Virus record (IMG/VR): IMGVR_UViG_3300020430_000055
Coordinates: 1-33,698 of that record
DNA from: a virus
DNA: 33,698 bases
Direction: 5' to 3' (one strand)
This document shows, one piece after another, positions 3,847-33,698 of this stretch. Made by a program: the position numbers and the translations under genes. Within the stretch, counting starts at the first letter, position 1. Every line of letters begins with the position of its first letter. The notes below the pieces were generated by a model. It did not search any database, was not told the origin of the DNA, and worked only from the letters and a program-made list of their open reading frames with translations.

Positions 3847-3854
3847 TATTTATA
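3847..3854 (-). promoter_or_regulatory. T4-type late promoter element before the glycine-rich adhesin
   Basis: Exact TATAAATA on the minus strand, overlapping the stop codon of the gene at 3850-4098 and ending 5 bases before the ATG at 3841 (TATAAATAATATTATG). With the usual start point of T4 late transcription, the mRNA would begin at or next to the A of the ATG. Confidence 0.5.
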
Positions 3855-11032: not shown

Positions 11033-11252
11033 TTGTATCTACCATCTTTGTTAATAAATTTTTTATTTCTTTAAAATCTTCTCTTAATTCATTTACTTCT
11101 CTAACTAGTCCTCTAACTGTTTCTTTTTCTGCTCTTCTTGTAACTACCTTTTTCATATAACTTTCATACGAGGACTTATCAGTATTAATTATAGCATTGT
11201 TGTTTTTATCTCTTACTAAATTTTCATGTCCTTCTACTTTTAATTTACTCAT
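11022..11252 (-). CDS. Small coiled-coil protein after the DUF4815 protein
   Basis: 76 residues. A short N-terminal part (KVEGHENLVRDKNNNAIIN) is followed by a helix of about 45 residues with heptad spacing (ETVRGLVREVNELREDFKEI). Proteins with this 'NLVRD...AI-N-D' opening and a C-terminal coiled coil occur in the structural clusters of T4-like marine phages as far as I recall, without assigned function. The start sits on the stop of the giant upstream gene as TAATG, so it is translationally coupled to it. It might act as an assembly partner or small virion component. Confidence 0.75.
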   Translation of the reverse strand: MSKLKVEGHENLVRDKNNNAIINTDKSSYESYMKKVVTRRAEKETVRGLVREVNELREDFKEIKNLLTKMVDTNGR

Positions 11253-14200
11253 TAGACAGCCAATGCAATACCTCTTAAATCTTTTAGTCTAGGTGGATAA
11301 ACACTATTAGTTCCTTTTAGAACTGCCTTGAGTTGGAATGAAGTAAATCCTTCTAACCCATCCACACTATATTTGTATTCACTAAAGGTTTCATAATCTT
11401 CAGCAGGTGGTACTACACTATCAGAAGCGCCTGTTGAATTAAATGGTCTAAAATCAATATCTTCTATTCTTCTAGTTTCAGAACCACCAGATACTCTATA
11501 ATATAATTCTACTGAAGAAGATGATCTAATATTAGCACTAATTCTAATATCTAATGCAGTAGACTCATTATCTAATTCTATAGGCCTTGTTATATAAGCA
11601 GAACTTGAACTACCACCCACACTCTTAGTTTCAGCAACAAACTCTGGGTGGTTACCTGATGTTGGACTATCTAATCTATTTTGAGTACAGAAAATACTCT
11701 TTCTTGCCAAGTCAATTACAGGTGATACATTATCTACAGCAGATGATATTTCATATGTATTAAATAAAGATTTACTACCTGACATCTCATTTGTTTGGTT
11801 AATATCTGAGGCAACCATCTGAGGTGTGGTAAATAAAATATTTTGAAATAAATCAACTTGTTCTTTTGCTGTTGCCGCAAGTAGTGAGAATTCTGTTTGC
11901 GAACCATTTACAGATTTAGCACTAGTTGTTCTTAAAAATACATTTGTGGTACAATTAGGTAATGTCATGGTCTGAACATTCAACATAGCCTGATCTACAA
12001 TCATATTTTGTGTAGCAACTATATTAGAACCGCCGCCAGTTGATGTTGCATTTGCATTAGTTGATACTGTAATATCATACGAGTCCATAGTAATATTAGA
12101 AATACTTGTATGTGTAGTATTAATTTCACTTGCAGGAATATTATTTGTTGCAGTTGCACCTGATATGGTTACATTATTACTTGTTCCGTGCATACCATGG
12201 TTTGGTTGTCTAACTCTGATAACAGCAGAACCACTAGTTGTTTGTAAAGCATTTGTTTCTAATGATCTAGTAGGAACAGAGTCATTTACAAGAGTAACAT
12301 TACCAGTTTTAGTTACATCAAATAATGCTCTATTTAATTGAAACTTTAAGTCTTTAGTTTGATCTTCAGACCAAGTAGAGCCATTCTGAGATTTAAATAA
12401 AATACCCATTGATGGCTGTTTTGATACTAGTCTATTAGAGTCTATTGTTTTTTGACCTGTCTCACCAACATAAACATTGTAGTTTGTACTATTAGCAAGC
12501 AATACAATAGCAAACTCATCTGTATCAGGTAAATATATAGGTGCATCAAAAGTAAATCTTGTTGCAGTAGAACCATCGGTTGAAGTATTTACTGATCCTG
12601 GATTTAAAGTTTTTGTTGCCAAAGGAACAATTTGATTAGTAGGATAACCATTACTCATTGTTCTTAATTGTAAAGTTACAGGAACTCCACTATCTTTAGT
12701 TCTAAAATAAACATCTACTGAAGTTATAAAAGCACCACCCTCTGTTGGTATATTGAATGATTGTGCGAGAGGATCGAACCAGTTAAAGTTAAACCCAGCT
12801 GGAAAAAGAAAATCAAATCTTATAGGAAACTGAAGAACAGGTGCTGGTGGTAATTGTGTGCCAGCAACACTTTCTCTAGCAGTTTGACTTCTAGTTATCT
12901 CTTGAGTACCTGTTAATGTAGTTCTTCTAAATTCTATTTCTCTAGTTGAGTGAACAGTTGCTTGTCTAGTTTCTAATCTACCCTCAGCAGTGTATCTTGC
13001 TTCTGCTGATGTATTTACATCATTTTCTATTTGTGAATTAGTGCTACTATCAGTTAGTCTGAATATTCTAGTTCCTGTTCTCCATCTTGGATTTGAATCA
13101 TTTGTTGAATCAGGTATAGCAAATGTTCCTGATACAGCACCATTAGCATTTGTAATTAAAGAACCGCCAAGTGAACCTCCATCAGGAGTTACATATGCAG
13201 TAACAGCCACATTATCAAAGAACGGATAAACTCTAGTACTAGGTTTTAATCCTGTTGCAGTAAATGTAATTGTTCTACTTCTAATAAATGGAATAAATGC
13301 AAGGTTAACTAATCTATCGCCTCTAGCTCTTTGTACAATTCGAGGAACAATATCAGTTCTTACACCAGTTCTTCTTTGCCTAACTCTTGTATCTCGTCTT
13401 ATAATATCTACTCTATCTCTTTGTCTTGTTGCAGCTTCTGAACCAACTACAGTTGATGTTGTTGCACCAGTCCAGAAATCTTCCCATTCATTCCATACTG
13501 TACCTGTTGTAAACGAACCATCTCTATTTGTTGTTCTACCAGCAACAAATGTATCAAAAGCGCCTTCAGTTACAACTTGTAAATCAGGTTGCCTTCTTAC
13601 TTCTCTCCACTCATCACTTGGTGGATCTAAAGCAATTTGCCCTGACCAAATAACTACATCAAATGGATTAATATTTTCAACACCTGTAGCAAATGGTTGA
13701 GATATTACACTTGTCTCTGTAAATGGTAAAGTAAGGAAATCGCCATTCTTTTTATAATGTTGATTTGTTCTAAATGTATCTGTTAAATCAGTAGCAGAGG
13801 TACTACCAGTGTCAGTTGACTCTACTAAGGTTACAGCATCGGTAAAGTGAGGACTTCTTGCCTCACCTCTTGCCATATCCATTGCAATATTATATCCTGA
13901 ATTATTTACATCACCTATATTATGACCAGTAAAATTATCTACAATAAATCCATTTTTAAATCTATCAAAACCATCTGCATCTTGTATTTGTAAATTTTCT
14001 GCAGCTGCTTCTAATAATGATAATTGAGTATAGTATTCAACATTCTGTATTCTTCTTTCTAGTCTACCAATGTCCCTCATAGTATATCTTCTATTATCTT
14101 GAGGAATTATTTGTACATCTTCAGGATTAAAAGTATATGGTGCGATACCTAGTGTGAATATATGCATGGCATCTTCTAAATCTTCAGGTGCCACAGGATT

Positions 14201-17200
14201 TAAAGCAGCCGCACCTTTCTTGACAACAAATTCACCTGTCTTACTTAAAAATAATTTATCTATTCTAGGTAGATAATATTCTAAATCTGTAAATATTAAA
14301 CTATTAAATTTAGGTGTATCTGTAGTTGAAGCACCTGTACCATCAAATTCTCTATCAGGACCACCAGATTCAATAGTTGAGGCATCATCTACTCTAGGTC
14401 TAAAGTCTAAACAATCTCTTAACTGGAATTCTTCTCCAGTAGTATCTGAAGTATATTCTGGAATAGTTTCATATTGATCAGTAGGATAACTATCAACATC
14501 AAAATAATCACCAGCACCATGAGAATAAAAAGCAAATGTTACTAATAGTCTACCAGTAACAGCGATTGAATTAACTTTTTTAACTAGTCTACCTACATCA
14601 TAGAAGTTATCTCTTTGTCCGGTATCTAATGTAAATCTATCGGTAACATCTGTATCACCAGTTGTTGCATTTGTACTAAAATCTGCTGCCATATGAACAC
14701 TAGTTAATTCATAGACATCAGCTTTACCTAAATTTATAGTGTCTGCCTGAGCTTCTGCTTGAGTTGAAATCTGTACAGTTTGTCCTGTATTTTTAGTTTT
14801 TGATTTAGAACCTGCAGTTGTTCTTGTTATAGTTGCAACAATTTTAACTTTATGACCATTGTAACCAGAACCTTGATTGATAGTTAAAGATTGTGTTCCA
14901 GTACCTGATATTGTAGGTGTAATTACATCTCCTACAGCACCTGAACCACCAGAACCTGTTGACATAATAGTCATAATATAATCTGTATTACTATTCGCAA
15001 GGAAAGTTTCACCAGAGGCCGCATTTAAAGTCGCACCACCTGTTGATGATAGTGTTTCTACAAAGGTTCTTCTAACTGTAAATGAGGTATCTGTAACATT
15101 ACTATTATTAGTTGTTTTTAGAGTTTTGACAGGAGTGTAGGGTAATTTAAATATTGCACTATTAAGGTTTGCCTCTTGTCTTTTTGCTCTTTTTCTATTT
15201 GCAACTGTTTTAGTTGCAACACCCGAACCGCCAACAGCAGTCGTTATTTCTAACTTAGTATTACTTTCAATACTTTCTACAATTTTTGTTGTAGTTGAAC
15301 CAGCGTCATCTATAAATTCTATTGTATCACCAATAACTAATTCAGTAGTAAAACTTGTACCAAAACCAGATACAGCAGTACCACTATTTGCGACTGATAT
15401 GCTACCAGTTAAAGTTGTAACTTCACCATAAGTTGAATCAATCGTAGTATCAGCAGTGAAATCAATATCGGTAACATCACTAAACAGTTGTCTAGTTTCA
15501 AAGAATTTTCTTATGTTAATACCTTTTCTACCAAAAGCACTAAATTGAATTCTTGCAGTAAATCCTGAAGTTGCACCAGTTATTACCTCATTCTCTGAAA
15601 ACTCTCCTTGAGTATTAGATAAAACTACTACATCGTGCTTTACAGTTGCACCTGAACCAGAATATGTTTGTGAAGAACCTACAGCGGTAGGTGTACCGCC
15701 TGAACTTGCATCTGAAAATACCTCAAAAGTTGTAGCAGTAGGATTTTTAACTGTAAAGTTGCCGTTAATATCAGTCATACCAGAAACACCTGCAATCGTA
15801 ACCACTTGACCTTCTTTGAAGTTATGGCCGCCTGAGCAAGTAACCACAACAGGAGTAGCAGTTGAAGCACCAGTTATAGTTGCACTATTTTCACTTGATA
15901 TACTTTCTACAACACCAGAAGCACCAGTAGTACCACCGGTTACAAATTCACCAGTTGTAAATCCAGAAGCATTACTAATTGTGCCATCTACTTCAATATG
16001 TGTAAACATTTCTATATCAAATAAAAATGCCTTATGTACTGAACTAGTAGGATATATACCCGCACTTGCAGTACCTTCTACATTTTCGATGCCTCTACAT
16101 TTAGCACGACCGATTTCTTTTATATCAGCATTTGTATTTGCAATCGAAGTTCCTCTAGAACTTGTTGCTGTATCGAATAGTTTTATATTTGCATAAGGTT
16201 TAATATCACCTGCACCTGAACCATTACCTTTTCCTAAATCAGGAATATTAAACATATTTGTTACATGAACAAAATTGCCTAGAGTGAATTGAGTAACATT
16301 AGCATTTACATCTTTAAACTCTCTTGCTTTCTCAACATCAACAATATTCTGACTTGTTTTTTCTATCTCGTAACCTTTAACATATGCTTTACCAGGTGTT
16401 AGAAGAGCAGCTAATTTAGTTGTTGAGGCTGTACCGCCTTGATTAGTAGTACCGCCATCTGAATAAATACCTCTATTATTGCCAGATAAAACACTTTCTC
16501 TTATATCTAAATCGAAATCTCTAATTGTATAATCACCAGACTCATCAAAGGTTCTTCTTGCAAGTGTATCAGATAAAATATTATAATCAGTTTGATCTTT
16601 TTGAAAAATAGTTACGCCATTTATTACTCTTGTCAACTCTATGAAATTTATATCATCAGTTGCATCTATTGCTTTCTTTGCTAATGTTAATTCAAATTTT
16701 AATCTATGAGCACCGGGTGCATTTTCATTTGAAGAACCAGCCGCATTATCATTTAGACTAGCGTTTTCAGTAGGTGTATCAATTTTTTCCTCTATAGTAA
16801 GACCAACTCTATAAGTAGCATTAAAATCATATTTTTCTAATATTAATGATTGCTCACTTGTTTGTACAAAAAATCCTCTAACAAAAAATATACCTTGAGA
16901 TATATTAGCAATAACACCTTGGTGAAAAGTATTGACAACAGCAGAAACACTCGTACTAACACCACTTATATCTACTGTGCCTGATATGGTTTCACTACCT
17001 GTAAATGTAGTAGAAGTATTATTAGAACCACTATTTTGATATTCAACAAAAAGAGTATTAGGATCAGTACCATCAGCTGCTGAAGTTTCTAATACTTTCG
17101 CAACAACACCCGAGGTACCACCAGTTAGTGTCGCACCTTTAAGGTCTGATAGTGTACTAGTTCCTGTGAATGAAGTGAGTTTTATAGAATCTCTAACAGT

Positions 17201-17410
17201 TGTTTTAACGCCACCAGGTACAACAATATCACCTTCTTTAAATATATTATTACCAAACCTCTCTACTTGATTTTGTAAAATAGTTTGTGCTTGAGTAAGC
17301 TCTCTTGCTTGTATAGAGAAGGATGGTCTAAATAATACTCGATGGTAATTATTACTGTCAGCAAAATCATCATAATAAGGGCTGACATTAAAATCCGTTA
17401 TAGTTGCCAT
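11252..17410 (-). CDS. Giant baseplate/tail structural protein, DUF4815 type
   Basis: 2052 residues, the largest gene here. The N-terminus (PYYDDFADSNNYHRVLFRP, then QARELTQAQTILQNQVERFG) is the signature of the DUF4815 family of large structural proteins in T4-like marine phages. Further recognisable parts are several GExITGxTSGAxAxV beta repeats (early part, and about residues 490-640), a HNFKEGQVVTIAGVSG domain near 520-560 like FCCH-type beta modules, a region near 1390 (GLKPSTRVYPFFDN, WRTGTRIFRLTD) common in this family, and from about 1545 (WFDPLAQSF) a jelly-roll-like domain (DEFAIVLLANSTNYNVYVG). It follows gp8, where T4 has gp9/gp10, so a baseplate-periphery or fibre-attachment role is likely. 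No enzyme motif was seen. Confidence 0.85.
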   Translation of the reverse strand: MATITDFNVSPYYDDFADSNNYHRVLFRPSFSIQARELTQAQTILQNQVERFGNNIFKEGDIVVPGGVKTTVRDSIKLTSFTGTSTLSDLKGATLTGGTSGVVAKVLETSAADGTDPNTLFVEYQNSGSNNTSTTFTGSETISGTVDISGVSTSVSAVVNTFHQGVIANISQGIFFVRGFFVQTSEQSLILEKYDFNATYRVGLTIEEKIDTPTENASLNDNAAGSSNENAPGAHRLKFELTLAKKAIDATDDINFIELTRVINGVTIFQKDQTDYNILSDTLARRTFDESGDYTIRDFDLDIRESVLSGNNRGIYSDGGTTNQGGTASTTKLAALLTPGKAYVKGYEIEKTSQNIVDVEKAREFKDVNANVTQFTLGNFVHVTNMFNIPDLGKGNGSGAGDIKPYANIKLFDTATSSRGTSIANTNADIKEIGRAKCRGIENVEGTASAGIYPTSSVHKAFLFDIEMFTHIEVDGTISNASGFTTGEFVTGGTTGASGVVESISSENSATITGASTATPVVVTCSGGHNFKEGQVVTIAGVSGMTDINGNFTVKNPTATTFEVFSDASSGGTPTAVGSSQTYSGSGATVKHDVVVLSNTQGEFSENEVITGATSGFTARIQFSAFGRKGINIRKFFETRQLFSDVTDIDFTADTTIDSTYGEVTTLTGSISVANSGTAVSGFGTSFTTELVIGDTIEFIDDAGSTTTKIVESIESNTKLEITTAVGGSGVATKTVANRKRAKRQEANLNSAIFKLPYTPVKTLKTTNNSNVTDTSFTVRRTFVETLSSTGGATLNAASGETFLANSNTDYIMTIMSTGSGGSGAVGDVITPTISGTGTQSLTINQGSGYNGHKVKIVATITRTTAGSKSKTKNTGQTVQISTQAEAQADTINLGKADVYELTSVHMAADFSTNATTGDTDVTDRFTLDTGQRDNFYDVGRLVKKVNSIAVTGRLLVTFAFYSHGAGDYFDVDSYPTDQYETIPEYTSDTTGEEFQLRDCLDFRPRVDDASTIESGGPDREFDGTGASTTDTPKFNSLIFTDLEYYLPRIDKLFLSKTGEFVVKKGAAALNPVAPEDLEDAMHIFTLGIAPYTFNPEDVQIIPQDNRRYTMRDIGRLERRIQNVEYYTQLSLLEAAAENLQIQDADGFDRFKNGFIVDNFTGHNIGDVNNSGYNIAMDMARGEARSPHFTDAVTLVESTDTGSTSATDLTDTFRTNQHYKKNGDFLTLPFTETSVISQPFATGVENINPFDVVIWSGQIALDPPSDEWREVRRQPDLQVVTEGAFDTFVAGRTTNRDGSFTTGTVWNEWEDFWTGATTSTVVGSEAATRQRDRVDIIRRDTRVRQRRTGVRTDIVPRIVQRARGDRLVNLAFIPFIRSRTITFTATGLKPSTRVYPFFDNVAVTAYVTPDGGSLGGSLITNANGAVSGTFAIPDSTNDSNPRWRTGTRIFRLTDSSTNSQIENDVNTSAEARYTAEGRLETRQATVHSTREIEFRRTTLTGTQEITRSQTARESVAGTQLPPAPVLQFPIRFDFLFPAGFNFNWFDPLAQSFNIPTEGGAFITSVDVYFRTKDSGVPVTLQLRTMSNGYPTNQIVPLATKTLNPGSVNTSTDGSTATRFTFDAPIYLPDTDEFAIVLLANSTNYNVYVGETGQKTIDSNRLVSKQPSMGILFKSQNGSTWSEDQTKDLKFQLNRALFDVTKTGNVTLVNDSVPTRSLETNALQTTSGSAVIRVRQPNHGMHGTSNNVTISGATATNNIPASEINTTHTSISNITMDSYDITVSTNANATSTGGGSNIVATQNMIVDQAMLNVQTMTLPNCTTNVFLRTTSAKSVNGSQTEFSLLAATAKEQVDLFQNILFTTPQMVASDINQTNEMSGSKSLFNTYEISSAVDNVSPVIDLARKSIFCTQNRLDSPTSGNHPEFVAETKSVGGSSSSAYITRPIELDNESTALDIRISANIRSSSSVELYYRVSGGSETRRIEDIDFRPFNSTGASDSVVPPAEDYETFSEYKYSVDGLEGFTSFQLKAVLKGTNSVYPPRLKDLRGIALAV

Positions 17411-18899: not shown

Positions 18900-18907
18900 T
18901 ATTTATA
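18900..18907 (-). promoter_or_regulatory. T4-type late promoter element before gp8 (proximal)
   Basis: Exact TATAAATA on the minus strand, 18 bases before the gp8 ATG. The same 18-base spacing is seen at 21679-21686. The predicted leader of about 13 bases contains AGGA. Confidence 0.65.
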
Positions 18908-18962: not shown

Positions 18963-20501
18963 TTAAGTAGTTATTGTCAATACATTCGCACCCGTATAAG
19001 GATTGAACAAAAATCTCTTAGGTGTAGATCCTGGGTTTAAATTTCTCCAGTTTGCAAAGTTGCCATCCGCAGGATCATAGATTTTATCAGTTGTGCATAA
19101 ACTATGAACTAAAGTTTTTAATTCTGCAGGTGTTAGTTGCGGGTTTACAGATAGTAATAAACATAAAACACCTGCAACTTGAGGGCCTGCCATACTAGTA
19201 CCTGATATATTAACTTGTTTATAACTAGAATTAGCATAATAGTTTTGACCACTTTTATCATTTGTTGTACTACAAGCACTCATAACATAAGTACCTGGGG
19301 CATAAATATCTACCGCAGGTCCGTGAACTGAATCTACACTTTTTTGATCTTGAGTTGAACTATAAGCAGTACTATCAATATTTCCAACATTAAAAGCATT
19401 TACTGAATATGGAGATGAGCCTCTATTATAATATCCTGTACCAGCAGTTATTGTATAAGTGTTATTATAATCTGAACCTGTTGTTAAATCGTGAGTATAA
19501 TAACTATTACCAGCAGAATGACAAATATGTATACCTGCATCTATCATTTCATCTAAATCAGCATCAACTGAAGCAACTCGTAAAGGTGTTTTATATGGTG
19601 CTGAACCTGGAAATGCCTGAAACTTAAATGTTCTTAATTCAGCCAGTGTATCTATATCAGTTCCTGATTTAGCAGTACCTTGATAATTTAACGCTGAAGG
19701 TAAATCATTATGAGTTGTATTATATCCCCAAGACATATTTACGACTGTTGGTCTTCCTGCATTTGCACCTGACTTAGCATTATGCCAACCTTTTATACAA
19801 TCAAAAGCATCAGCAATAGCAATACCTGTACCACTATCTCCTGTTCCTTCTAAACCTGAAAGTTTTTGTGCATATATCTTTGCCCCTTGAGCGTGACCAA
19901 AAGTTTTACCAACAGCGATACCAGCACAATGAGTGCCGTGACCATCATAGTCTCTATCGTGATTTGCATTTTGAGTTCCTGAAACGCCTGAAGCAGTATA
20001 CCAGTCCACAGTTGACCATCTATTAGAACCACTTGAGTCTTGAAACTCAGGATGATCTGTTTGAATACCACTATCTTGAACTATGAAATCTACACCAGTG
20101 CCATCTGCTGTAAAATTATAATTATCACTTGTTGTTGTTCCTGTGCCGTAATTATTTGTCTCATTTTGACACCTTATTAATCCCCAATTTTGAAATGTGC
20201 CTGTGCTACTAGTTGTTTTATTATATGTACCTGATCTTGTAGCATCATGGCCTATCACAGCGTTAGGAATTTTATCTGGTGGGACTTCGACATCTTCTAC
20301 TCTAGGATCATTTTTAAGATCCTGTGCTTCAGATTCTTCTAAACCATAGTGTGTGTTTCTAATTGATTTAGGTCTTGCATTTGCGACATCTACTGTACGA
20401 TTAGGAATTTTACCTGTGCCAGAACTGGCAGTCATCTCTGAATTAAACTGATCAGCGTCAACCCCTTTTTTGAGGGTGACTATATACTCTTTCTCCGCCA
20501 T
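18963..20501 (-). CDS. Subtilisin-like serine protease (S8 family)
   Basis: 512 residues with a complete subtilase active site: Asp143 (VQDSGIQTDHPEF), His188 (DGHGTHCAGIAVG), oxyanion Asn332 (CHSAGNS) and Ser436 (GTSMAGPQVAGV). Residues 5-75 (EYIVTLKKGVDADQF ... DLKNDPRVEDVEV) resemble an inhibitor I9 propeptide, which folds the protease and is then cleaved off. No signal peptide or membrane segment precedes it, so it should act in the phage-producing cell or as a virion part. The tail after the catalytic domain (about 475-512) is short. It lies in the baseplate cluster between a fibre gene (10-base gap) and gp8. Possible roles are maturation of fibre/baseplate proteins or digestion of host surface protein during entry. 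Catalysis is secure, substrate unknown. Confidence 0.93.
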   Translation of the reverse strand: MAEKEYIVTLKKGVDADQFNSEMTASSGTGKIPNRTVDVANARPKSIRNTHYGLEESEAQDLKNDPRVEDVEVPPDKIPNAVIGHDATRSGTYNKTTSSTGTFQNWGLIRCQNETNNYGTGTTTSDNYNFTADGTGVDFIVQDSGIQTDHPEFQDSSGSNRWSTVDWYTASGVSGTQNANHDRDYDGHGTHCAGIAVGKTFGHAQGAKIYAQKLSGLEGTGDSGTGIAIADAFDCIKGWHNAKSGANAGRPTVVNMSWGYNTTHNDLPSALNYQGTAKSGTDIDTLAELRTFKFQAFPGSAPYKTPLRVASVDADLDEMIDAGIHICHSAGNSYYTHDLTTGSDYNNTYTITAGTGYYNRGSSPYSVNAFNVGNIDSTAYSSTQDQKSVDSVHGPAVDIYAPGTYVMSACSTTNDKSGQNYYANSSYKQVNISGTSMAGPQVAGVLCLLLSVNPQLTPAELKTLVHSLCTTDKIYDPADGNFANWRNLNPGSTPKRFLFNPYTGANVLTITT

Positions 20502-21678: not shown

Positions 21679-21686
21679 TATTTATA
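21679..21686 (-). promoter_or_regulatory. T4-type late promoter element before the 20512-21660 fibre gene
   Basis: Exact TATAAATA on the minus strand in the 33-base gap upstream, 18 bases before the ATG. The leader carries AGAGAGAG as ribosome binding site. It would also serve the subtilase gene immediately downstream. Confidence 0.65.
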
Positions 21687-24366: not shown

Positions 24367-26283
24367 TTAGTATGTACCACTAGTACCACCAGTGGAAGTT
24401 GAATAACTAGTTGAAGTTGAATATCCTACACCAGAAGAAGTTGATCCGCTCTCTATTGTATCAACTGTACCTTGTATTGTTGAGTTTGCTGTATCAATAT
24501 TTAAAACTTGACCTCTTACAGGTGCAACATCATTTGATCTTGGTATTACTGTAACTCTAATTTGAGTCGAAACAGCACCGTCTACATCTGAGACAGCAGT
24601 TATTCTTGCTGATGATATTACTATTTCGCCTGTATCATAATTTACTGTGCCAAAGTTATTATCATCATAAACTATTTGTCCGCCATCTAAGTGATATAAT
24701 CTAATATTACCAGCACCATCATCATTAAAAAAGTATTCAACTGTATTATCATTGTTTAATTTAAATCCTGTTGTTGAAACAACGCCACCCATAGCAGAGT
24801 TATGGCCACTATGTGGATTGTAAATAGCATTATTAAATAATATTGTATATTTTTGATTTGCAGTAGAAGAAACAAGTGGTGTAAATTTTTGATAAATTTT
24901 AACAGTTGTTATATTACTAACTATTGCAGGATCTGTATTGTCTATTAATCCGCCTATTACACTATGTCTAAACACTCCAACAAAATTATTTAAAGAATCA
25001 GTTGAATAGTTTGATAGTGTTGTATTAACTTCACTTGCTAAAGTTGTGGCGTCTTTAGTTGTTAAATTACTATTAAATTTAAAATTAACACCTAAAACAA
25101 TAAATGTAGTTTCAGGATCTACTAAAGTTGGTCTAACTGAAGCAACAGCATATTGACCTAATTGTGTTTCAATATCTGTTTTATCTACTGAAGTTAAATT
25201 AGAACCATCTGCTAATTTAACTGATATGAAAACTTTACCATATTGAGGTGTTGAGTTATCTTCACCACCCCATACTTGAATAGCATTTGCCGCAGGATAT
25301 ATTTGTTTTACTAATGTTTTATAATCTGCAGCTGTTACTGCCCTATCTTGAGCACCATATTGTAAAGGTGCATTTAATTTTACAGAAGCAATACTTTCTG
25401 CCTCTGAACCGCCAGTAGATTTACTATTAACTGTAATTGATTGAGCAGAAAATCCTGCGATAGTGCCTGATAGTGAAAAACTATTTGCACCATTTGAAGC
25501 TGTTTTATTGGTTACTATGTAAGTTAATTTAACTATATTACCATCTTGTATTTTTTTACCTACAGCACCATCACCAAAAAATACTTCAAATTTTCCATCT
25601 TCAACTTCTTGGGTAAAATAAACTCTACCATCTGGTGCTACGCCTGTTAGTGATGAAACTTTTGAATATGTAAAAGTCCTTGTATCTGAGGATGAGTTTT
25701 GTACTTCAACTTTTAGTGTAGTCATATCAGCATTAGAATTGGGTACTATAAATCTTTGATCTTCGTTGCTACTATCTGCCGTGTATTGAAAAGTTACTCT
25801 AGTGCCTTCAAATATTTTGCAGTTTGAAAATGTGTAGACACCATCCTGTGGTGTTATTGTTTTATCAGAATTTGTAACATAAGTGTATTGTGTGTCGCCA
25901 ACAGTTGTTGTGAATTTTGTTCCTGCAGGCATTGTAACCGAAGCACCTGATGCATTTGCTAAAACTATTGTAATATCAGCTGAAGGTGCAATCGCTGAAG
26001 CAGGAGTATATCCTAACATTTTAGACAAAGATACTACACTTGATCTTAAAGCTGCACTATCAAGGAACATTTCATTTGCTAACATATTAGCATTAAATCC
26101 TAAATAGTGTGTATTGTATGCTAGTAGATCAAGAAGAACTGACATGCCAGAACCTTCAAAATCAAAATCAGCAAACTCTGCTTGATTTCTTAAAAAGTTT
26201 TTAAGATTAGTTTTGATTTGGTCAAAGTCTAACTCTGTGACCTGTAATTTTTTTGTTTCGTTAGCACTAGTTGTTGTAGCCAT
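24367..26283 (-). CDS. gp6: Baseplate wedge protein gp6 (baseplate J-like)
   Basis: 638 residues against 660 in T4 gp6. The N-terminal region (LDFDQIKTNLKNFLRNQ, GSGMSVLLDLLAYNTHYLGF, ANEMFLDSAALRSSVVSL, LGYTPASA) is the conserved core of gp6/baseplate J proteins. The middle has VYFTQEVEDGKFEVFFGDGAVGK and the family's AVTAADYKTLVKQIYPAA. Then comes the GKVFISVKL and ETQLGQYAVASVRP domain. The last 25 residues are low-complexity Ser/Thr/Gly. gp6 forms the dimer ring that ties the six wedges round the hub and triggers sheath contraction. The gene starts 1 base after the gp25-fusion stop and lies directly before the gp7-position gene, as in T4. Confidence 0.93.
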   Translation of the reverse strand: MATTTSANETKKLQVTELDFDQIKTNLKNFLRNQAEFADFDFEGSGMSVLLDLLAYNTHYLGFNANMLANEMFLDSAALRSSVVSLSKMLGYTPASAIAPSADITIVLANASGASVTMPAGTKFTTTVGDTQYTYVTNSDKTITPQDGVYTFSNCKIFEGTRVTFQYTADSSNEDQRFIVPNSNADMTTLKVEVQNSSSDTRTFTYSKVSSLTGVAPDGRVYFTQEVEDGKFEVFFGDGAVGKKIQDGNIVKLTYIVTNKTASNGANSFSLSGTIAGFSAQSITVNSKSTGGSEAESIASVKLNAPLQYGAQDRAVTAADYKTLVKQIYPAANAIQVWGGEDNSTPQYGKVFISVKLADGSNLTSVDKTDIETQLGQYAVASVRPTLVDPETTFIVLGVNFKFNSNLTTKDATTLASEVNTTLSNYSTDSLNNFVGVFRHSVIGGLIDNTDPAIVSNITTVKIYQKFTPLVSSTANQKYTILFNNAIYNPHSGHNSAMGGVVSTTGFKLNNDNTVEYFFNDDGAGNIRLYHLDGGQIVYDDNNFGTVNYDTGEIVISSARITAVSDVDGAVSTQIRVTVIPRSNDVAPVRGQVLNIDTANSTIQGTVDTIESGSTSSGVGYSTSTSYSTSTGGTSGTY

Positions 26284-26284
26284 A

Positions 26285-27481
26285 TTATCTTAGTCTCTCT
26301 AAAAATGTTTCAACCGTAACCGGTTCAGGATGATTAACAACATAAAATTCAATCCAGACTCTATATCTATTTTGATCTGGATTAGAATTAACATTTACTC
26401 TCACCAACCTTACTCTTGGTTCGTGATTTATTAAAACTTCTTCAATCTTCTTAGCCAAAAAGACTTCAGTAAGTGGTGTCATAGGTTCAAATAAAATATC
26501 TCTTACATTTGATCCTATTTCTGGGTGAAAAGGTTTCTCATAATGATTTAAGTTAATGAGATTTCTTACACTTCTTTTTACAGCATTTACACCTTCAAGT
26601 TTTACAATATCTTTTGTTGTAGGGTGTCTCGTAAAATTTAAATTCAAATCTTTCCATACTTTAGTATTTCTCTTAGTCCCCGTAGAGCTGGTATAATTAT
26701 ATGCCATACTTCTATTTATATTGGCAACTACGGACATTTTTAATATTCTATCATAGTATCCTGCATAATTGTGAAGTCTAATAGTGAATGTGAAAGTTGT
26801 ATCAGTCGTAACCGTGGGTGCAGTTCCTTCAATTCTATTATTAACTAGACTTAATCCATCAGGCAAACTACCTGATACTAATTCAGTATAGATATATCTA
26901 AATGCCTGACCACCTGCAGCCTTAAATTGTGAGACATAAGTAGGACTATCATCAATTAATATTTTGCCTGATCCCCCAAAAGTGCCCTTGTTAAAATTTT
27001 GAGCAAAGTTAATACTACCTGTGGGTGCAAATGATGATAAGTTAGAACTAACCCAAGATGTTTTTTCACTATTACCAGTCGACCCTGCTTCAGTTGTTAA
27101 TATAGAGTAACTACCGTGTATTGACTTTACTAAATCTAATACGCCTTTACCACTATCTAAAAATACCTGAGGTAGCACAGATAAACCTGCAAAGAACCCA
27201 GGTGTATTATTTGATATTTGTTGTGTAATAGAGGTCGTAGTAGTATCAGCATCTAAAAGATTATCAACACCATATAACTGAGCAAGTTTAATATTAAAAC
27301 CTGCAAGTGTATTATCCATATCAACAAAGATAGTGCTAGATCCTGTTCTATGAGTATTTAAAAATAACTCTAAATCATTAGTTGAATTTTCTGTTTTAAT
27401 AGGTAAATCTAGATTTATTGTTTGACCACTTTTGATATTTACAAAGTTATCATTATCCTGTACTGTCCAATCATTAGCCAT
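26285..27481 (-). CDS. gp25: Baseplate wedge gp25 fused to HAD 5'-nucleotidase and Ig-like domains
   Basis: 398 residues with three domains. (1) Residues about 49-196 read as a HAD-superfamily 5'(3')-nucleotidase: motif I FVDMDNTLAGF (Asp54, Asp56, Thr58), cap loop TPGFFAGLSVLP, motif II SILTTE (Thr129/130), motif III Lys140 in SEKTSWV, motif IV KILIDDSP (Asp177, Asp178) and AAGGQAFRY. (2) About 197-255 is a putative Ig (He_PIG) domain with SGSLPDGLSL and RIEGTAP. (3) About 275-398 is gp25: LINLNHYEKPFHPEIGSNV, ILFEPMTPLTE, LINHEPRVRLVRVNV match T4 gp25 (132 residues), including the EPR core shared with contractile-system lysozyme-like wedge proteins. gp25 links wedges to the tube base. Whether the nucleotidase domain is active in the virion is unknown, but all four motifs are intact. 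The reading frame is continuous. Confidence 0.9.
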   Translation of the reverse strand: MANDWTVQDNDNFVNIKSGQTINLDLPIKTENSTNDLELFLNTHRTGSSTIFVDMDNTLAGFNIKLAQLYGVDNLLDADTTTTSITQQISNNTPGFFAGLSVLPQVFLDSGKGVLDLVKSIHGSYSILTTEAGSTGNSEKTSWVSSNLSSFAPTGSINFAQNFNKGTFGGSGKILIDDSPTYVSQFKAAGGQAFRYIYTELVSGSLPDGLSLVNNRIEGTAPTVTTDTTFTFTIRLHNYAGYYDRILKMSVVANINRSMAYNYTSSTGTKRNTKVWKDLNLNFTRHPTTKDIVKLEGVNAVKRSVRNLINLNHYEKPFHPEIGSNVRDILFEPMTPLTEVFLAKKIEEVLINHEPRVRLVRVNVNSNPDQNRYRVWIEFYVVNHPEPVTVETFLERLR

Positions 27482-27483
27482 TT

Positions 27484-27774
27484 TTAACCTCCTGCAAATA
27501 CATTAGAGGAACCTGCAGCCACAGAGGTGCAACCTGATATGCCATCACCTACTCTACCACAACCTAGATTATTTACTTTCACCGTAGATGAACCTGAAGC
27601 AATAGGTGCTGAGTGTGAAGGACATGGAGTCCCAGGTAATAGGTGTGATGTATTATTATCACTTTGCCTAGATACAGCAATCCCATTACAGAATACATTT
27701 GGTGAACCCTGAGCTCTAGTCATACCAGAGCAGTGTGCAACATCAGCGTCTCCTATTCTTGTTACTGCCGGCAT
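27484..27774 (-). CDS. gp5.4: PAAR-repeat central spike tip protein (gp5.4-like)
   Basis: 96 residues, almost the consensus PAAR protein: PAVTRIGDADVAHCSG at the start, GSPNVFCNGIAVSRQ, then PCPSHSAPIASGSSTVKVN and GCGRVGDGISGCTSVAAGSS. The metal ligands of the family are present (His14, His44, Cys51, His54), so it should fold as a zinc-stabilised cone capping the gp5 spike and pierce the outer membrane first. T4 gp5.4 has about the same length and also lies next to gp6. It has no C-terminal effector extension. The start overlaps the preceding stop as TAATG and the gp25 fusion starts 2 bases after its stop. Confidence 0.96.
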   Translation of the reverse strand: MPAVTRIGDADVAHCSGMTRAQGSPNVFCNGIAVSRQSDNNTSHLLPGTPCPSHSAPIASGSSTVKVNNLGCGRVGDGISGCTSVAAGSSNVFAGG

Positions 27775-28403: not shown

Positions 28404-28411
28404 TATTTATA
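28404..28411 (-). promoter_or_regulatory. T4-type late promoter element at the head of the baseplate block
   Basis: Exact TATAAATA on the minus strand in the divergent gap, 6 bases before the first ATG (TATAAATAGTGGATATG). It is well placed to drive the spike, gp25, gp6 and gp7-position genes as one late transcript. Confidence 0.7.
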
Positions 28412-29415: not shown

Positions 29416-30072
29416 ATGTTAAGAAATATATGCTGGGTATTCTCAGGCGAACACGGCCTCTCAAAAGAGCGCTGTGATTTTTTGGTTAGGCGAGGTCTTG
29501 AAGCACAGGAACAAATTGCAACCCACCAAAACGAAAATCAAACATATTCAAGTGATGATAAAGTTAGAGCAAGTCGTATATCTTGGTTACACGGTGAGGA
29601 TATCTATGAATGTGTAAGGCCATTTGTTAATAAAGCAAATGAAGAAGCGGGTTGGCGCTTTGATGTAAGACAAATAGAGAATATACAATTTACAAAATAT
29701 GGTCTAAATCAACATTACGATTGGCATATAGATGGCGACTCTGATCATTTTGCCAGTAAAGTTTTAACACCTAATAAAAAAGAATATGCTATTAATGAAA
29801 CACCTGATCATTCTATGGTTGGCATGTGCAGAAAAATAAGTGTATCTATACAACTATCAAATAGTGAAGATTATGAAGGTGGCAATATGTACTTTACAGA
29901 CTTACCTAAACATAGTCAAACAAGCGAATTACAAACATGGACAAATGAGAGATTTAGAGAACGAGGTGCAGTATTAGTTTTTCCATCTTTCATTAGACAC
30001 AAAGTAGAACCCGTTACAAAAGGCACACGATTGAGTGCTGTTGCCTGGTTTAACGGCCCACCATTCAGATAA
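29416..30072 (+). CDS. 2OG-Fe(II) dioxygenase (prolyl-4-hydroxylase / PiuC-like)
   Basis: 218 residues forming a complete 2-oxoglutarate and iron dependent oxygenase. The facial triad is HxD at His104-Asp106 (QHYDWHIDGD) and His195 (FIRHKVEPV). Arg205 (GTRLSAVAWF) is placed to bind the 2OG carboxylate. Other family marks are FTKYGLNQHYDWH, SVSIQLSNSEDYEGG and GAVLVFPSF. Such enzymes couple oxidation of 2-oxoglutarate to hydroxylation of protein, lipid or nucleic-acid substrates. T4-like marine phages often encode one or more; the substrates are mostly unknown. It has no signal peptide, so it is cytoplasmic. It is followed after 1 base by a second oxygenase of another subfamily. Confidence 0.92.
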   Translation: MLRNICWVFSGEHGLSKERCDFLVRRGLEAQEQIATHQNENQTYSSDDKVRASRISWLHGEDIYECVRPFVNKANEEAGWRFDVRQIENIQFTKYGLNQHYDWHIDGDSDHFASKVLTPNKKEYAINETPDHSMVGMCRKISVSIQLSNSEDYEGGNMYFTDLPKHSQTSELQTWTNERFRERGAVLVFPSFIRHKVEPVTKGTRLSAVAWFNGPPFR

Positions 30073-30073
30073 G

Positions 30074-30781
30074 ATGTATTTAGAATACAAAAAAGAAATT
30101 ATACCTAAAGCATTAATTCTAGAAACCATGATTCCTGAGGATATGGTTATTAGATTAAATGAATTATTAGATAAAGTTTCTGAAGATAAAAAATATAAGT
30201 TTGAACATAATGCAGCCCCAACACTTGCAGGTGTTATTAAAAAAGGATTTCAAGTTTATCTAGATCAAAAAGAATCCATCATACAAGAATATACAAACTT
30301 AACACACGAATTATCAAAAAAGTATATTCAAGAGTTTTCTATTATATCACAAAATAATTATTCTAACAAAATGATAAAGACTGAGGATATATGGTCAGTT
30401 CATCAATATGAAGGTGACTATAATCCTATTCATTCTCATAATGTGCCAGGTAGCGTACCTGGATTTGCTACCGTATTATGGACAAAAGTGCCTGAACAAT
30501 TAGAAGCAATTAGTCCAGATAAAAAATTATACGAGACAAAAGGATTGATAAGAGATTTTGGTTTAAATGGCATTACGGATGGTCACTTATGTTTTATGAC
30601 TGATCCGACAACATCAATAGACGAGATAGAAAGATTTAAATTTTCAGGAACAAGTTTAGTGCAACCAGTAGTAGGAAAGTTAGTGTTGTTTCCACTACAT
30701 ATAAATCACTTAGTTTACCCATTTGAAGGTAAAGGTGAGAGGCGATCAATCGCTAGTAATATATCTTGTACTAATGTCTAA
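30074..30781 (+). CDS. Second 2OG-Fe(II) oxygenase (phage-type, HxH variant)
   Basis: 235 residues from ATG 30074, one base after the previous stop; a frame starting upstream at 30035 overlaps the first oxygenase and is rejected. The C-terminal half has the marks of the putative 2OG-Fe(II) oxygenase family frequent in marine phages (like PF13759): NPIHSHNVPGS with His120 and His122, then GKLVLFPLHINHLVYPF with His212, and ERRSIASNI supplying the 2OG-binding Arg. The metal motif thus reads HxH...H instead of HxD...H, as is usual in that family. The N-terminal 100 residues are helical and charged. The gene ends 8 bases into the next one. It is likely to hydroxylate a different substrate from its neighbour, or the same one in sequence. 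Confidence 0.82.
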   Translation: MYLEYKKEIIPKALILETMIPEDMVIRLNELLDKVSEDKKYKFEHNAAPTLAGVIKKGFQVYLDQKESIIQEYTNLTHELSKKYIQEFSIISQNNYSNKMIKTEDIWSVHQYEGDYNPIHSHNVPGSVPGFATVLWTKVPEQLEAISPDKKLYETKGLIRDFGLNGITDGHLCFMTDPTTSIDEIERFKFSGTSLVQPVVGKLVLFPLHINHLVYPFEGKGERRSIASNISCTNV

Positions 30782-31230: not shown

Positions 31231-31845
31231 CTACTTCCCGTTATAATAATCAAACCAGCGTCTTACTATCTTAGGTACTATCCACTTTCTAGGATACCAA
31301 ACTTTAACACCATCTAATTGTTGCTGTCTAGTGCAACCTTTCTTTGCCCAATACTTATAACTTGGCATAATGGTACCATCTGGTAACATAAACTCAAAAC
31401 TTCTCTGTCTAGACTTCTTATCCAAATAAGAGAAACCTTTAAACATAATAGATACCGCTTTGTCTTTGTATAATTCTATCTTATGAAAGTCATCTAATTT
31501 AGTATCACTACTAAACGACCCAGGCCGCCTGTTTTTGATAGTCTTTTCGCCTGTGTGTCTATTGACTATGATTTCTTTATAACCGCCGTAAACGATAAAT
31601 GTGTGCATCCTCCATGGGTGATTATGGAAATCGGTATAGTCATTATACATTATGTTTATTACCAAATGATTTAGAATTGGTATCCAACCAAATGGGAATA
31701 TTCTGAGTATGTAGAAAAATTTGCCATTACTACCTTCGACTGCTGGCATGGCATTAACTTCGTGAATGAATAACCAGTTCTTACAAAATCGTAAAAACCA
31801 GCCATCATTTTTTTCTTGTTCTTTTATTAAATCAATGTAATTCAT
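31231..31845 (-). CDS. Cupin-like protein
   Basis: 204 residues from ATG 31845; an in-frame GTG at 31854 would add three. The central region (DFHNHPWRMHTFIVYGGYKE, then RRPGSFSSDTKLDDFHKIEL) has the HxH ... His spacing of a metal-binding cupin barrel: His-Asn-His-Pro-Trp in the first motif and DFHKIEL as the second. The C-terminus (KKGCTRQQQLDGVKVWYPRKW) is basic. Small cupins like this are common next to sugar-modifying genes in marine phages and may act as epimerases, dioxygenases or binding proteins; nothing fixes which. It overlaps the upstream sulfotransferase-like gene by 14 bases and ends 46 bases from the converging plus-strand operon. Confidence 0.65.
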   Translation of the reverse strand: MNYIDLIKEQEKNDGWFLRFCKNWLFIHEVNAMPAVEGSNGKFFYILRIFPFGWIPILNHLVINIMYNDYTDFHNHPWRMHTFIVYGGYKEIIVNRHTGEKTIKNRRPGSFSSDTKLDDFHKIELYKDKAVSIMFKGFSYLDKKSRQRSFEFMLPDGTIMPSYKYWAKKGCTRQQQLDGVKVWYPRKWIVPKIVRRWFDYYNGK

Positions 31846-32620
31846 AATTTTCACTATAACCAGTTCTTCTGATTACCTCATCCTTTTCTTCTCTAGTATA
31901 TTTATTAAGTTTAAAAGTAAACTGTCCTTCATATTGTTTTAATGGTATACCACACAATTCTTTCATATTAAATAAATCCTCATATGCCACAGTATGATCA
32001 AACTTATGTTCTCTATAACACTTCAACATAATCTCCATATGTAGTTTATGATAGTTAATATAGTAATCATCATATTTAAGATTTGGTCTTTTATATTGCA
32101 TAAACTGGCTACTCGCATTACCAATACCTGTTTGATGATACGCTAAGAAAGATAAAAAATGTTCTACAAAGTTTTTTCTATATAAAAATATTGTAGTTAG
32201 TGGTGCCCATTTTTCTAATAATTCTTTATAATTAAATCCTACACCGTAACCGTGTTGATCATCTTCATATAAATCCCAGCAGGTAAATTTAGCAACAAAA
32301 GGGCCGTTATCTACACAATGTTTTATTTGATCTTCTCTAGATAATGACCTTATCTCTCTATCTAAATTATGAAGTTTTGATAAATTTTCTCTATACTCTT
32401 TTGATGATTCTTTTATAACTTTATAAAATTGATCACCCATGTATTGTAAACCTTTTTTATTTTGCATACCCATAAGGTCTTTTTGCATACCTTCTTCCAT
32501 AACACCAGGTGCAATCTTACATAACTTTTCACCTACATTATATAAATTATAGTGTGTTTCTAGAACATGGTTTAACCAACTTGAGCCACACCTAACAGGA
32601 CATACAATCAAATAGTTCAT
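31832..32620 (-). CDS. Sulfotransferase-family protein
   Basis: 262 residues from ATG 32620, which overlaps the preceding stop as ATGA; an in-frame ATG at 32629 is an alternative. The N-terminal NYLIVCPVRCGSSWLNHVLE matches the 5'-phosphosulfate-binding loop of PAPS-dependent sulfotransferases. The later TTIFLYRKNFVEHFLSFLAY resembles the 3'-phosphate-binding segment with its Arg and Ser, and HTVAYEDLFN is the usual following strand. It should transfer sulfate to a sugar, lipid or small molecule in the cytoplasm. The catalytic base is not obvious by eye. The partial gene at the left edge has a similar start (GRCGST). Its neighbours, a carbamoyltransferase and a cupin, suggest modification of a glycan or small polar compound. 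Confidence 0.78.
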   Translation of the reverse strand: MNYLIVCPVRCGSSWLNHVLETHYNLYNVGEKLCKIAPGVMEEGMQKDLMGMQNKKGLQYMGDQFYKVIKESSKEYRENLSKLHNLDREIRSLSREDQIKHCVDNGPFVAKFTCWDLYEDDQHGYGVGFNYKELLEKWAPLTTIFLYRKNFVEHFLSFLAYHQTGIGNASSQFMQYKRPNLKYDDYYINYHKLHMEIMLKCYREHKFDHTVAYEDLFNMKELCGIPLKQYEGQFTFKLNKYTREEKDEVIRRTGYSENYELH

Positions 32621-33698
32621 CTTGTCCATGTTTTACTACCTACAACCATTTTATTGATACCTTCTGCTTCTTGAAATAGTTTTATTGCTTGTTCTCTAGT
32701 GCCACATATTGCTTCACCTTGTAAGTTTGCTGAAGTATTGAGTAATACAGGTATGCCTGTTAGTTTTTCAAACTCATCTAGTAATTCATAATATACAGGA
32801 TTCATTTCTGGTGTTACCGTATTATGTCTGCAAGTACCGTCTCTATGTGTCACCGCAGGTATACCTGAATACTTAACTTGACTATTGTACATCATAAAAG
32901 GACTATCAGTCATTTCAAAAAATCTATGTGCTTGATCTTGTTTCACACTAGCACCAAAAGGCCTCCAAGGTTCTCGTCTCTTAACTGCATTTATCTTTTG
33001 TTTACCATTTTTGATTGTTGGGTCCATAAGTATAGAACGATTACCTAACGCTCTAGGTCCTACCTCACCATGACCATTATACCATAGAACAACTTTACCG
33101 TTTGCAAGATCCTCAGCAGTTCTTTTAATAGTTTGGCTATCAGCAGTACCCCAAGATGGTTCATCACTTTGACAAAAAGGAAAGTTATCAAACTTAACTT
33201 CAAAATCATATTTCTTACCTAGATATGCTAAAGCACCTATTGATAAGCCTTCATCGCCACAATGAGGTGGTATCTTAATATCAAAACCCTCTTGTTTTAA
33301 TCTTTGATTAATTACTACATTTAAAGCAACACCGCCTGTATAACCTATCGGTTTACTTTTATCAAAGTTATCTTCAAATAACTTTATCATATAATTAACA
33401 AGTGTATTATGTGCTGATGCTACAAAATCTAACCAGTCTTTATTTTGAAATACTGCTTCACCCTCAAAAATAGATAATGGATAATTTAATAAATCAATGC
33501 CAAATAATTTACTATATTTTTCTATAACTCTACCATATGATTGTAGACCCATAATCTTACCAGGTAAATCTAGAGAGTCATTAACTTCACAGCCTGTTGA
33601 TAATCCCATTTTTAGTCCTATGGGTATCATGTAACTACCAATAGGCCAACCATCTTTACCTATATTAAATATCTTATCATTAATTAATGCATACCTAC
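32617..33698 (-). CDS. NodU/TobZ-type carbamoyltransferase, C-terminal part (cut by window edge)
   Basis: The frame runs to the right edge without a start, so the 5' end lies outside; at least 359 residues are visible of the 500-600 usual in the family. An internal ATG at 33630 is unlikely to be the true start because the upstream codons (INDKIFNIGKDGWPIG) read as family sequence. Present are the end of the TsaD/Kae1-like ATPase fold (YTGGVALNVVIN, CGDEGLSIGALAYLG) and the complete C-terminal carbamoyltransferase domain (NGHGEVGPRALGNRSIL, REPWRPFGASV, HRDGTCRHNTV, GIPVLLNTSANLQGE). Such enzymes make carbamoyl-adenylate from carbamoyl phosphate and ATP and move the carbamoyl group to a sugar hydroxyl. 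The metal-binding His residues of the N-terminal domain are outside the window. It is coupled by ATGA to the sulfotransferase-like gene. Confidence 0.9.
   Translation of the reverse strand, partial: RYALINDKIFNIGKDGWPIGSYMIPIGLKMGLSTGCEVNDSLDLPGKIMGLQSYGRVIEKYSKLFGIDLLNYPLSIFEGEAVFQNKDWLDFVASAHNTLVNYMIKLFEDNFDKSKPIGYTGGVALNVVINQRLKQEGFDIKIPPHCGDEGLSIGALAYLGKKYDFEVKFDNFPFCQSDEPSWGTADSQTIKRTAEDLANGKVVLWYNGHGEVGPRALGNRSILMDPTIKNGKQKINAVKRREPWRPFGASVKQDQAHRFFEMTDSPFMMYNSQVKYSGIPAVTHRDGTCRHNTVTPEMNPVYYELLDEFEKLTGIPVLLNTSANLQGEAICGTREQAIKLFQEAEGINKMVVGSKTWTR

Follow-up and report, generated by a model that had tools for sequence, protein, structure and literature searches.

gp25 is a small, essential and conserved part of contractile injection machines that starts sheath assembly, and Ig-like domains are common in virion proteins. 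The known gp25 proteins are short, being 131–136 aa in the T4 and KP1 structures, and an N-terminal enzyme domain is found in none of those examined. The gp25 proteins of HTVC008M, Melnitz, S-CAM7 and P-RSM6 likewise comprise 134–147 aa with no such domain, and a search for N-terminal extensions in the longer matches, P-RSM6 and S-CAM7, revealed none. In a gp25-like chain of a solved PVC baseplate (9qgl_9A), the gp25-like part occupies residues 124–201 of 239, and an N-terminal extension of gp25 is thus conceivable. Six copies of gp25 are present per T4 tail (PMC3004832), and gp25 homologues lie atop the core bundle of the wedge, next to the first ring of the sheath (PMC10457771; PMC8894135). 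As for expression, the consensus of T4 late promoters is TATAAATA, which has also been given for cyanophages in the form NATAAATA (PMC2984593); the first T of the box lies at position −13 in T4 (PMC2988020).

The stretch of DNA analyzed here (hereafter, the window) comprises the 33,698 bases of an IMG/VR viral record. It comes from a T4-like phage; in a search of a phage-genome collection, the cultured phages closest to it by gp25 infect Pelagibacter and Methylophilales. As shown in Table 1, the ORF at 26285–27481 is a clean fusion, in which an Ig-like He_PIG domain with an inserted NT5C-type HAD domain is followed by a complete gp25, the Ig-like domain and gp25 being joined by an NINRS linker. 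The initial annotation had described a HAD domain at residues 49–196 ahead of a C-terminal gp25 domain. Both domains were indeed present, the former corresponding exactly to window positions 27337–26894 on the minus strand, and what had been overlooked was the He_PIG domain around the HAD domain together with the apparent internal promoter and start of gp25.

Table 1. Features of the fused gp25 locus (window coordinates)
Feature	Position	Strand	Remarks
Fusion ORF, long form, He_PIG(HAD insert)-gp25	26285..27481	−	398 aa; start ATG 27481
AGGAGG Shine-Dalgarno-like site for the long form	27488..27493	−	6 nt before long-form ATG; overlaps end of PAAR gene
He_PIG Ig-like domain, first part	27338..27451	−	Residues ~11–48; strands 11–17 and 21–25
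HAD 5'(3')-nucleotidase-type domain	26894..27337	−	Residues 49–196; D54, D56, T129, K140, K165, D177, D178 kept
He_PIG Ig-like domain, second part	26723..26893	−	Residues 197–253
TATAAATA, putative T4-type late promoter of gp25 inside the fusion ORF	26713..26720	−	Codes for part of N-I-N; internal ATG follows after 5 nt
Nested complete gp25 frame, proposed short form	26285..26707	−	140 aa; original ATG = M259
760-bp cassette that sister contig L011 lacks in its entirety	26725..27484	−	Alignment ends at 27485, resumes at 26724
PAAR-motif protein (phrog_281), directly upstream	27484..27774	−	Stop codon 2 nt before fusion start
gp6-type baseplate wedge protein (phrog_219), directly downstream	24367..26283	−	Canonical gp25-gp6 order
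TATAAATA putative late promoter ahead of a run of short genes	28404..28411	−	6 nt before ATG 28397, first of the run to PAAR and the fusion
TATAAATA putative late promoters	3847–3854, 18900–18907, 21679–21686, 26713–26720, 28404–28411	−	Classes at 5–6 or 18–19 nt
Wild-type sequence with the late promoter box, TATAAATAGAAGTATG			

The identity of the C-terminal domain, as initially annotated, was corroborated by a Pfam profile search, in which residues 259–398 matched PF04965 with 45.4 bits (cut-off 27.2), and by a PDB search, in which they matched the T4 gp25 structure 5iv5 (E 1.4e-13). The position of the gene was also that of gp25, with PAAR on one side and gp6 on the other in a T4-like baseplate cluster. 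This part was poorly modeled in the full-length AlphaFold prediction (pLDDT mostly 26–71), for which the alignment was thin. No second gp25 gene was found in the window; all of the contigs bearing the fusion are fragments, and a second copy may possibly lie elsewhere in those genomes. Among the other genes of the region, one of the subtilase family (18963–20501, minus strand; Peptidase_S8, 104.6 bits) has the gp8 wedge gene on one side and the gp10-like one on the other, and the baseplate cluster may thus also encode a protease. Two 2OG-Fe(II) oxygenase genes, a sulfotransferase-like protein (a resemblance seen by eye, with no family match) and a Nol-like carbamoyltransferase flank the cluster (29416–30781, plus strand; 31832–33630, minus strand), and a 2052-aa protein (11252–17410, minus strand) matched DUF4815 and, just above the cut-off, E1_FCCH.

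The HAD domain matched phrog_2643, annotated as 5'-3' deoxyribonucleotidase, with an E value of 1.2e-10. A profile built from 32 phage relatives, 23 of them only 22–31% identical to the window, matched PDB structures of 5'(3')-deoxyribonucleotidases (4mum best, E 1.5e-14; also 3bwv, 1mh9 and others); a profile of eight sequences was too shallow to give any HAD match in the PDB. The single domain sequence from the window scored 16.3 bits against Pfam NT5C, under the cut-off of 24.8, and 29 of the 32 aligned members matched NT5C at E<=0.1 (best 1.8e-13). The HAD domain of the window is thus clear by profile and fold methods only, and the profile check on this domain proposed in the initial annotation succeeded with phrog_2643 and the 32-sequence profile and fell short with the single sequence. 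The accompanying structural check gave a HAD fold: the domain alone was modeled by AlphaFold with a mean pLDDT of 91.8 (90–97 within the full-length model), and human mitochondrial 5'(3')-deoxyribonucleotidase (mdN, 4l6a) was the second PDB fold match of this model (E 1.9e-4), phage nucleotidases being included among the viral ones. The domain model was used for these comparisons instead of the whole protein, which returned a mixture of gp25 and HAD matches. A chance match to HAD was ruled out by phrog_2643, the 32-relative alignment, the PDB profile search and the domain model.

All four HAD motifs could be assigned in the window, namely D54/D56 (DxD), T129, K165 (with K140 as a further lysine) and D177/D178. 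Fifteen columns were invariant in the 32-relative alignment, including D54, D56, K140, K165, D177 and D178. Furthermore, the motif-I aspartates, the motif-II threonine, the two lysines and the motif-IV aspartates were invariant in the fused copies that cover them and matched the remote relatives. The earlier description of four intact motifs was correct as to the retained catalytic residues, with a revision in motif III, which had been assigned to the lysine of SEKTSWV (K140). Although K140 is invariant too, K165 (in NKG, 12 residues before the DD pair) aligns with the DK ahead of LIDDRP in human mdN; on this alignment and that of the stand-alone enzymes, it replaced K140 as the best candidate for the motif-III lysine. 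Motif I reads DMDNT..AGF in the fusion and DMDGV..ADF in the stand-alone enzymes, and because of these different surroundings the substrate may differ from theirs. Outside the fusion, the HAD relatives found were stand-alone or differently fused phage nucleotidases with 25–34% identity, and the patterns used to search GTDB species genomes detected none. In four other loci (L107:3773-5401, L108:2-1387, L109:3764-4996 and L132:1457-4483), an NT5C-type HAD is fused to unrelated long flanks in proteins of 411–1009 aa in total, which suggests that this domain has often been moved around.

In the Pfam search, no He_PIG match was obtained with the uninterrupted full-length protein. When the HAD insert was left out, the rejoined flanks matched He_PIG (PF05345) with 34.5 bits (cut-off 24) over positions 12–86 of the 96-position profile, the second half alone giving 30.6 bits. 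The Ig strands (residues 11–25 and 198–252) were mostly modeled with pLDDT 76–92 in the full-length AlphaFold prediction, and together these observations indicated that the HAD domain interrupts an Ig-like domain. A search for separate sources of the Ig half of the module found it in fused genes only.

The fused gene, whole or partial, was found in 17 other contigs (L002–L010, L012, L085–L087, L092–L094 and L102) originating from many metagenomes, which rules out an assembly error or chimera and bears out the suggestion in the initial annotation that the same fusion be sought in other marine T4-like genomes. One of them, L002, is nearly the same as the window (99.8% identity at the DNA level), and the identity of the fused proteins falls to ~73% at the amino acid level. 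Median pairwise dN/dS values of 0.18 (HAD domain) and 0.16 (gp25) pointed to purifying selection on the HAD domain like that on gp25 and agreed with the initial proposal that the intact catalytic residues reflect selection.

Plain gp25 follows a PAAR-type gene in three close relatives (L011, L013 and L014). L011 is 92% identical to the window over the tblastn match and 95% over gp25, and the flanks of the block that it lacks are 80–90% identical in the two contigs. As this block spans from the PAAR stop codon to the predicted late promoter of gp25, the He_PIG-HAD module is, to judge from these alignments, an optional cassette of ~760 bp at one site. Fused and unfused genes were interleaved in a gp25 tree with about four state changes (bootstrap range 3–5), whose support was low, and the number of cassette gains and losses is hence unsure. 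Separately, a different PAAR-type gene lies upstream of gp25 in L014 (L014:1081-1341), so that recombination seems to occur at the PAAR-gp25 junction.

The late promoter motif TATAAATA precedes the gp25 ATG in every locus fetched with enough upstream sequence, and the spacing is 5 nt in the fused clade and in its unfused sisters alike. In the fused genes the motif is read in frame as (N/S)-I-N-(R/S), and M259, encoded by the internal gp25 ATG, is invariant in all fused proteins. Across 16 clade loci, 33 of 36 non-redundant sites stood before an ORF ATG, 28 at 5–6 nt and five at 18–19 nt, and half of the former (14 of 28) preceded genes other than gp25; for four control 8-mers, a spacing of 3–8 nt to an ATG was never seen in the same loci. 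The number of motifs in the window (8, versus 7.0 expected) was not above chance, and only their placement before start codons was. In addition, codons 254–257 showed no synonymous change in ten copies and were tied for the best of 200 four-codon windows, a modest signal given that three of the 200 windows tie and that the sequences are related. The sequence of the box and its spacing to the start codon fit a T4-type late promoter, for which the consensus would lie one helical turn ahead of a transcription start. Considering that the first T of the box lies at −13, +1 would, at the 5-nt spacing, coincide with the first base of the ATG, that is, with the start of a leaderless mRNA, from which we infer leaderless translation of the short gp25. 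Leaderless late mRNAs may, on the same grounds of spacing, be common in phages of the fused-gp25 clade. In the gp10-like gene, the spacing is 18–19 nt in some relatives and 5–6 nt in others.

Since an apparent late promoter and the ATG of gp25 are retained in every fused ORF, the gene probably yields both a long, enzyme-bearing protein and a short, ordinary gp25. We put at somewhat better than even the chance that it is such a two-product baseplate gene, in which an optional He_PIG-HAD cassette lies in frame before gp25 and both proteins are made. The long form would be translated from the PAAR operon mRNA via the AGGAGG site; an operon origin is probable because this site lies 6 bases before the ATG and the start follows PAAR by 2 nt, and the promoter ahead of the short-gene run is the likely source of this mRNA. 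The template for the short form of 140 aa would be a leaderless late mRNA whose 5' end lies at, or adjacent to, ATG 26707. By this scheme, the short gp25 would fill most of the six wedge positions and perform the normal initiation of the sheath, and the long gp25 would fill some, the proportion being a guess.

Alternatively, the long protein alone might be made, placing He_PIG-HAD at all six gp25 positions of each baseplate and leaving the internal TATAAATA as an inactive relic. The ORF is continuous with a strong Shine-Dalgarno site, a relic could persist in so young a clade as the fused one, and the long N-terminal extension of chain 9qgl_9A suggests that extensions are tolerable. However, neither the promoter 8-mer nor the ATG varies among the fused lineages, in contrast to neighboring positions, which have diverged, and the 5-nt spacing is the same as that of the motif before other genes of the clade, so that we regard a single product as unlikely. 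With the apparent promoter and the start of plain gp25 retained, the initial view that each virion would carry several copies of the enzyme is weakened, as the long form may constitute just part of the gp25 pool.

With regard to the place of action, a role at the host surface, as initially suggested, is possible but not favored, because gp25 homologues sit at the sheath junction and face the sheath, away from the host side (PMC10457771; PMC8894135). If both products are assembled, the long gp25 would instead place a metal-dependent phosphatase at the sheath-side rim of the baseplate, with the Ig-like domain as its holder, and the likeliest predicted activity would be the hydrolysis of nucleoside monophosphates or similar phosphomonoesters. 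The HAD domain might rather act late in the infected cell in dNMP or nucleotide recycling, with gp25 conferring late expression or stability and its presence in the virion being incidental, as the classification of the stand-alone phage relatives as auxiliary metabolic 5'-3' deoxyribonucleotidases (phrog_2643) could imply. We consider this quite improbable, given that a stand-alone gene would suffice and impose no burden on an essential assembly protein, and that the module stays in the same frame as a structural domain and a virion-type Ig-like domain. A catalytically idle HAD fold serving the baseplate for binding or as a spacer, to which the motif-I surroundings (DMDNT, AGF) unlike those of the stand-alone enzymes and the frequent repurposing of folds in virion proteins might be taken to point, is highly improbable in view of the low dN/dS and of catalytic D, T, K and DD residues that are invariant in the fused copies covering them and match the remote relatives.

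Taken together, the two-product reading leads to a tentative picture, to which we would give a little less than an even chance, in which some marine T4-like phages build mosaic baseplates: ordinary gp25 would be supplied by an internal leaderless late mRNA, a longer gp25 from the same frame would position an active nucleotidase, borne by an Ig-like arm, where sheath and baseplate meet, and the cassette would be gained and lost among close relatives. The conserved natural fusion of gp25 to an intact enzyme domain indicates that cargo can be attached at the gp25 position and suggests that contractile tails have a natural anchor point there. Retention of an apparent promoter inside the ORF would be a simple way for an essential structural gene to take up a bulky domain and keep its normal product. 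If both forms are made, virus particles could bear the enzyme optionally. Were the long form present in virions, ocean phages would have a particle-borne phosphatase where nucleotides and phosphate are scarce.

In a collection of 50,697 phage genome records, no isolated phage covered 80% of the fusion protein, in line with the initial statement that no wedge-nucleotidase fusion was known, and the HAD domain had no close match; a gp25-nucleotidase fusion was likewise not found in the open-licence papers searched. The parts are each known, and it is their combination, the nesting and the retained promoter that seem to be new. Residues 259–398 of the fusion correspond to a full T4-type gp25 (PF04965) in the canonical PAAR-gp25-gp6 order. 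The HAD domain shares its fold and all four motifs with NT5C-type 5'(3')-deoxyribonucleotidases (mdN 4l6a/4mum; phrog_2643) and, unlike them, sits inside an Ig-like domain joined to a structural protein. The rejoined He_PIG halves resemble the He_PIG/Ig-like domains of phage virions (PF05345) above the Pfam cut-off and differ from them in being interrupted by a whole enzyme domain. In having an enzyme domain within a protein of the baseplate, the fusion recalls the tail lysozyme gp5, the one enzyme known in the T4 particle as of 2010 (PMC3004832); gp5 is a hub protein that degrades the cell wall, whereas the fusion combines a wedge/sheath-initiator protein with a phosphatase-type domain. The proposed expression resembles that of VirF, for which a single ORF gives two proteins because a promoter within it, placed at the second start codon, produces a leaderless mRNA for the shorter one (PMC5101355); VirF is a bacterial regulator gene for which this was shown experimentally, whereas the fused gp25 is a phage structural gene for which a comparable arrangement, driven by a T4-type late promoter, is predicted from sequence.
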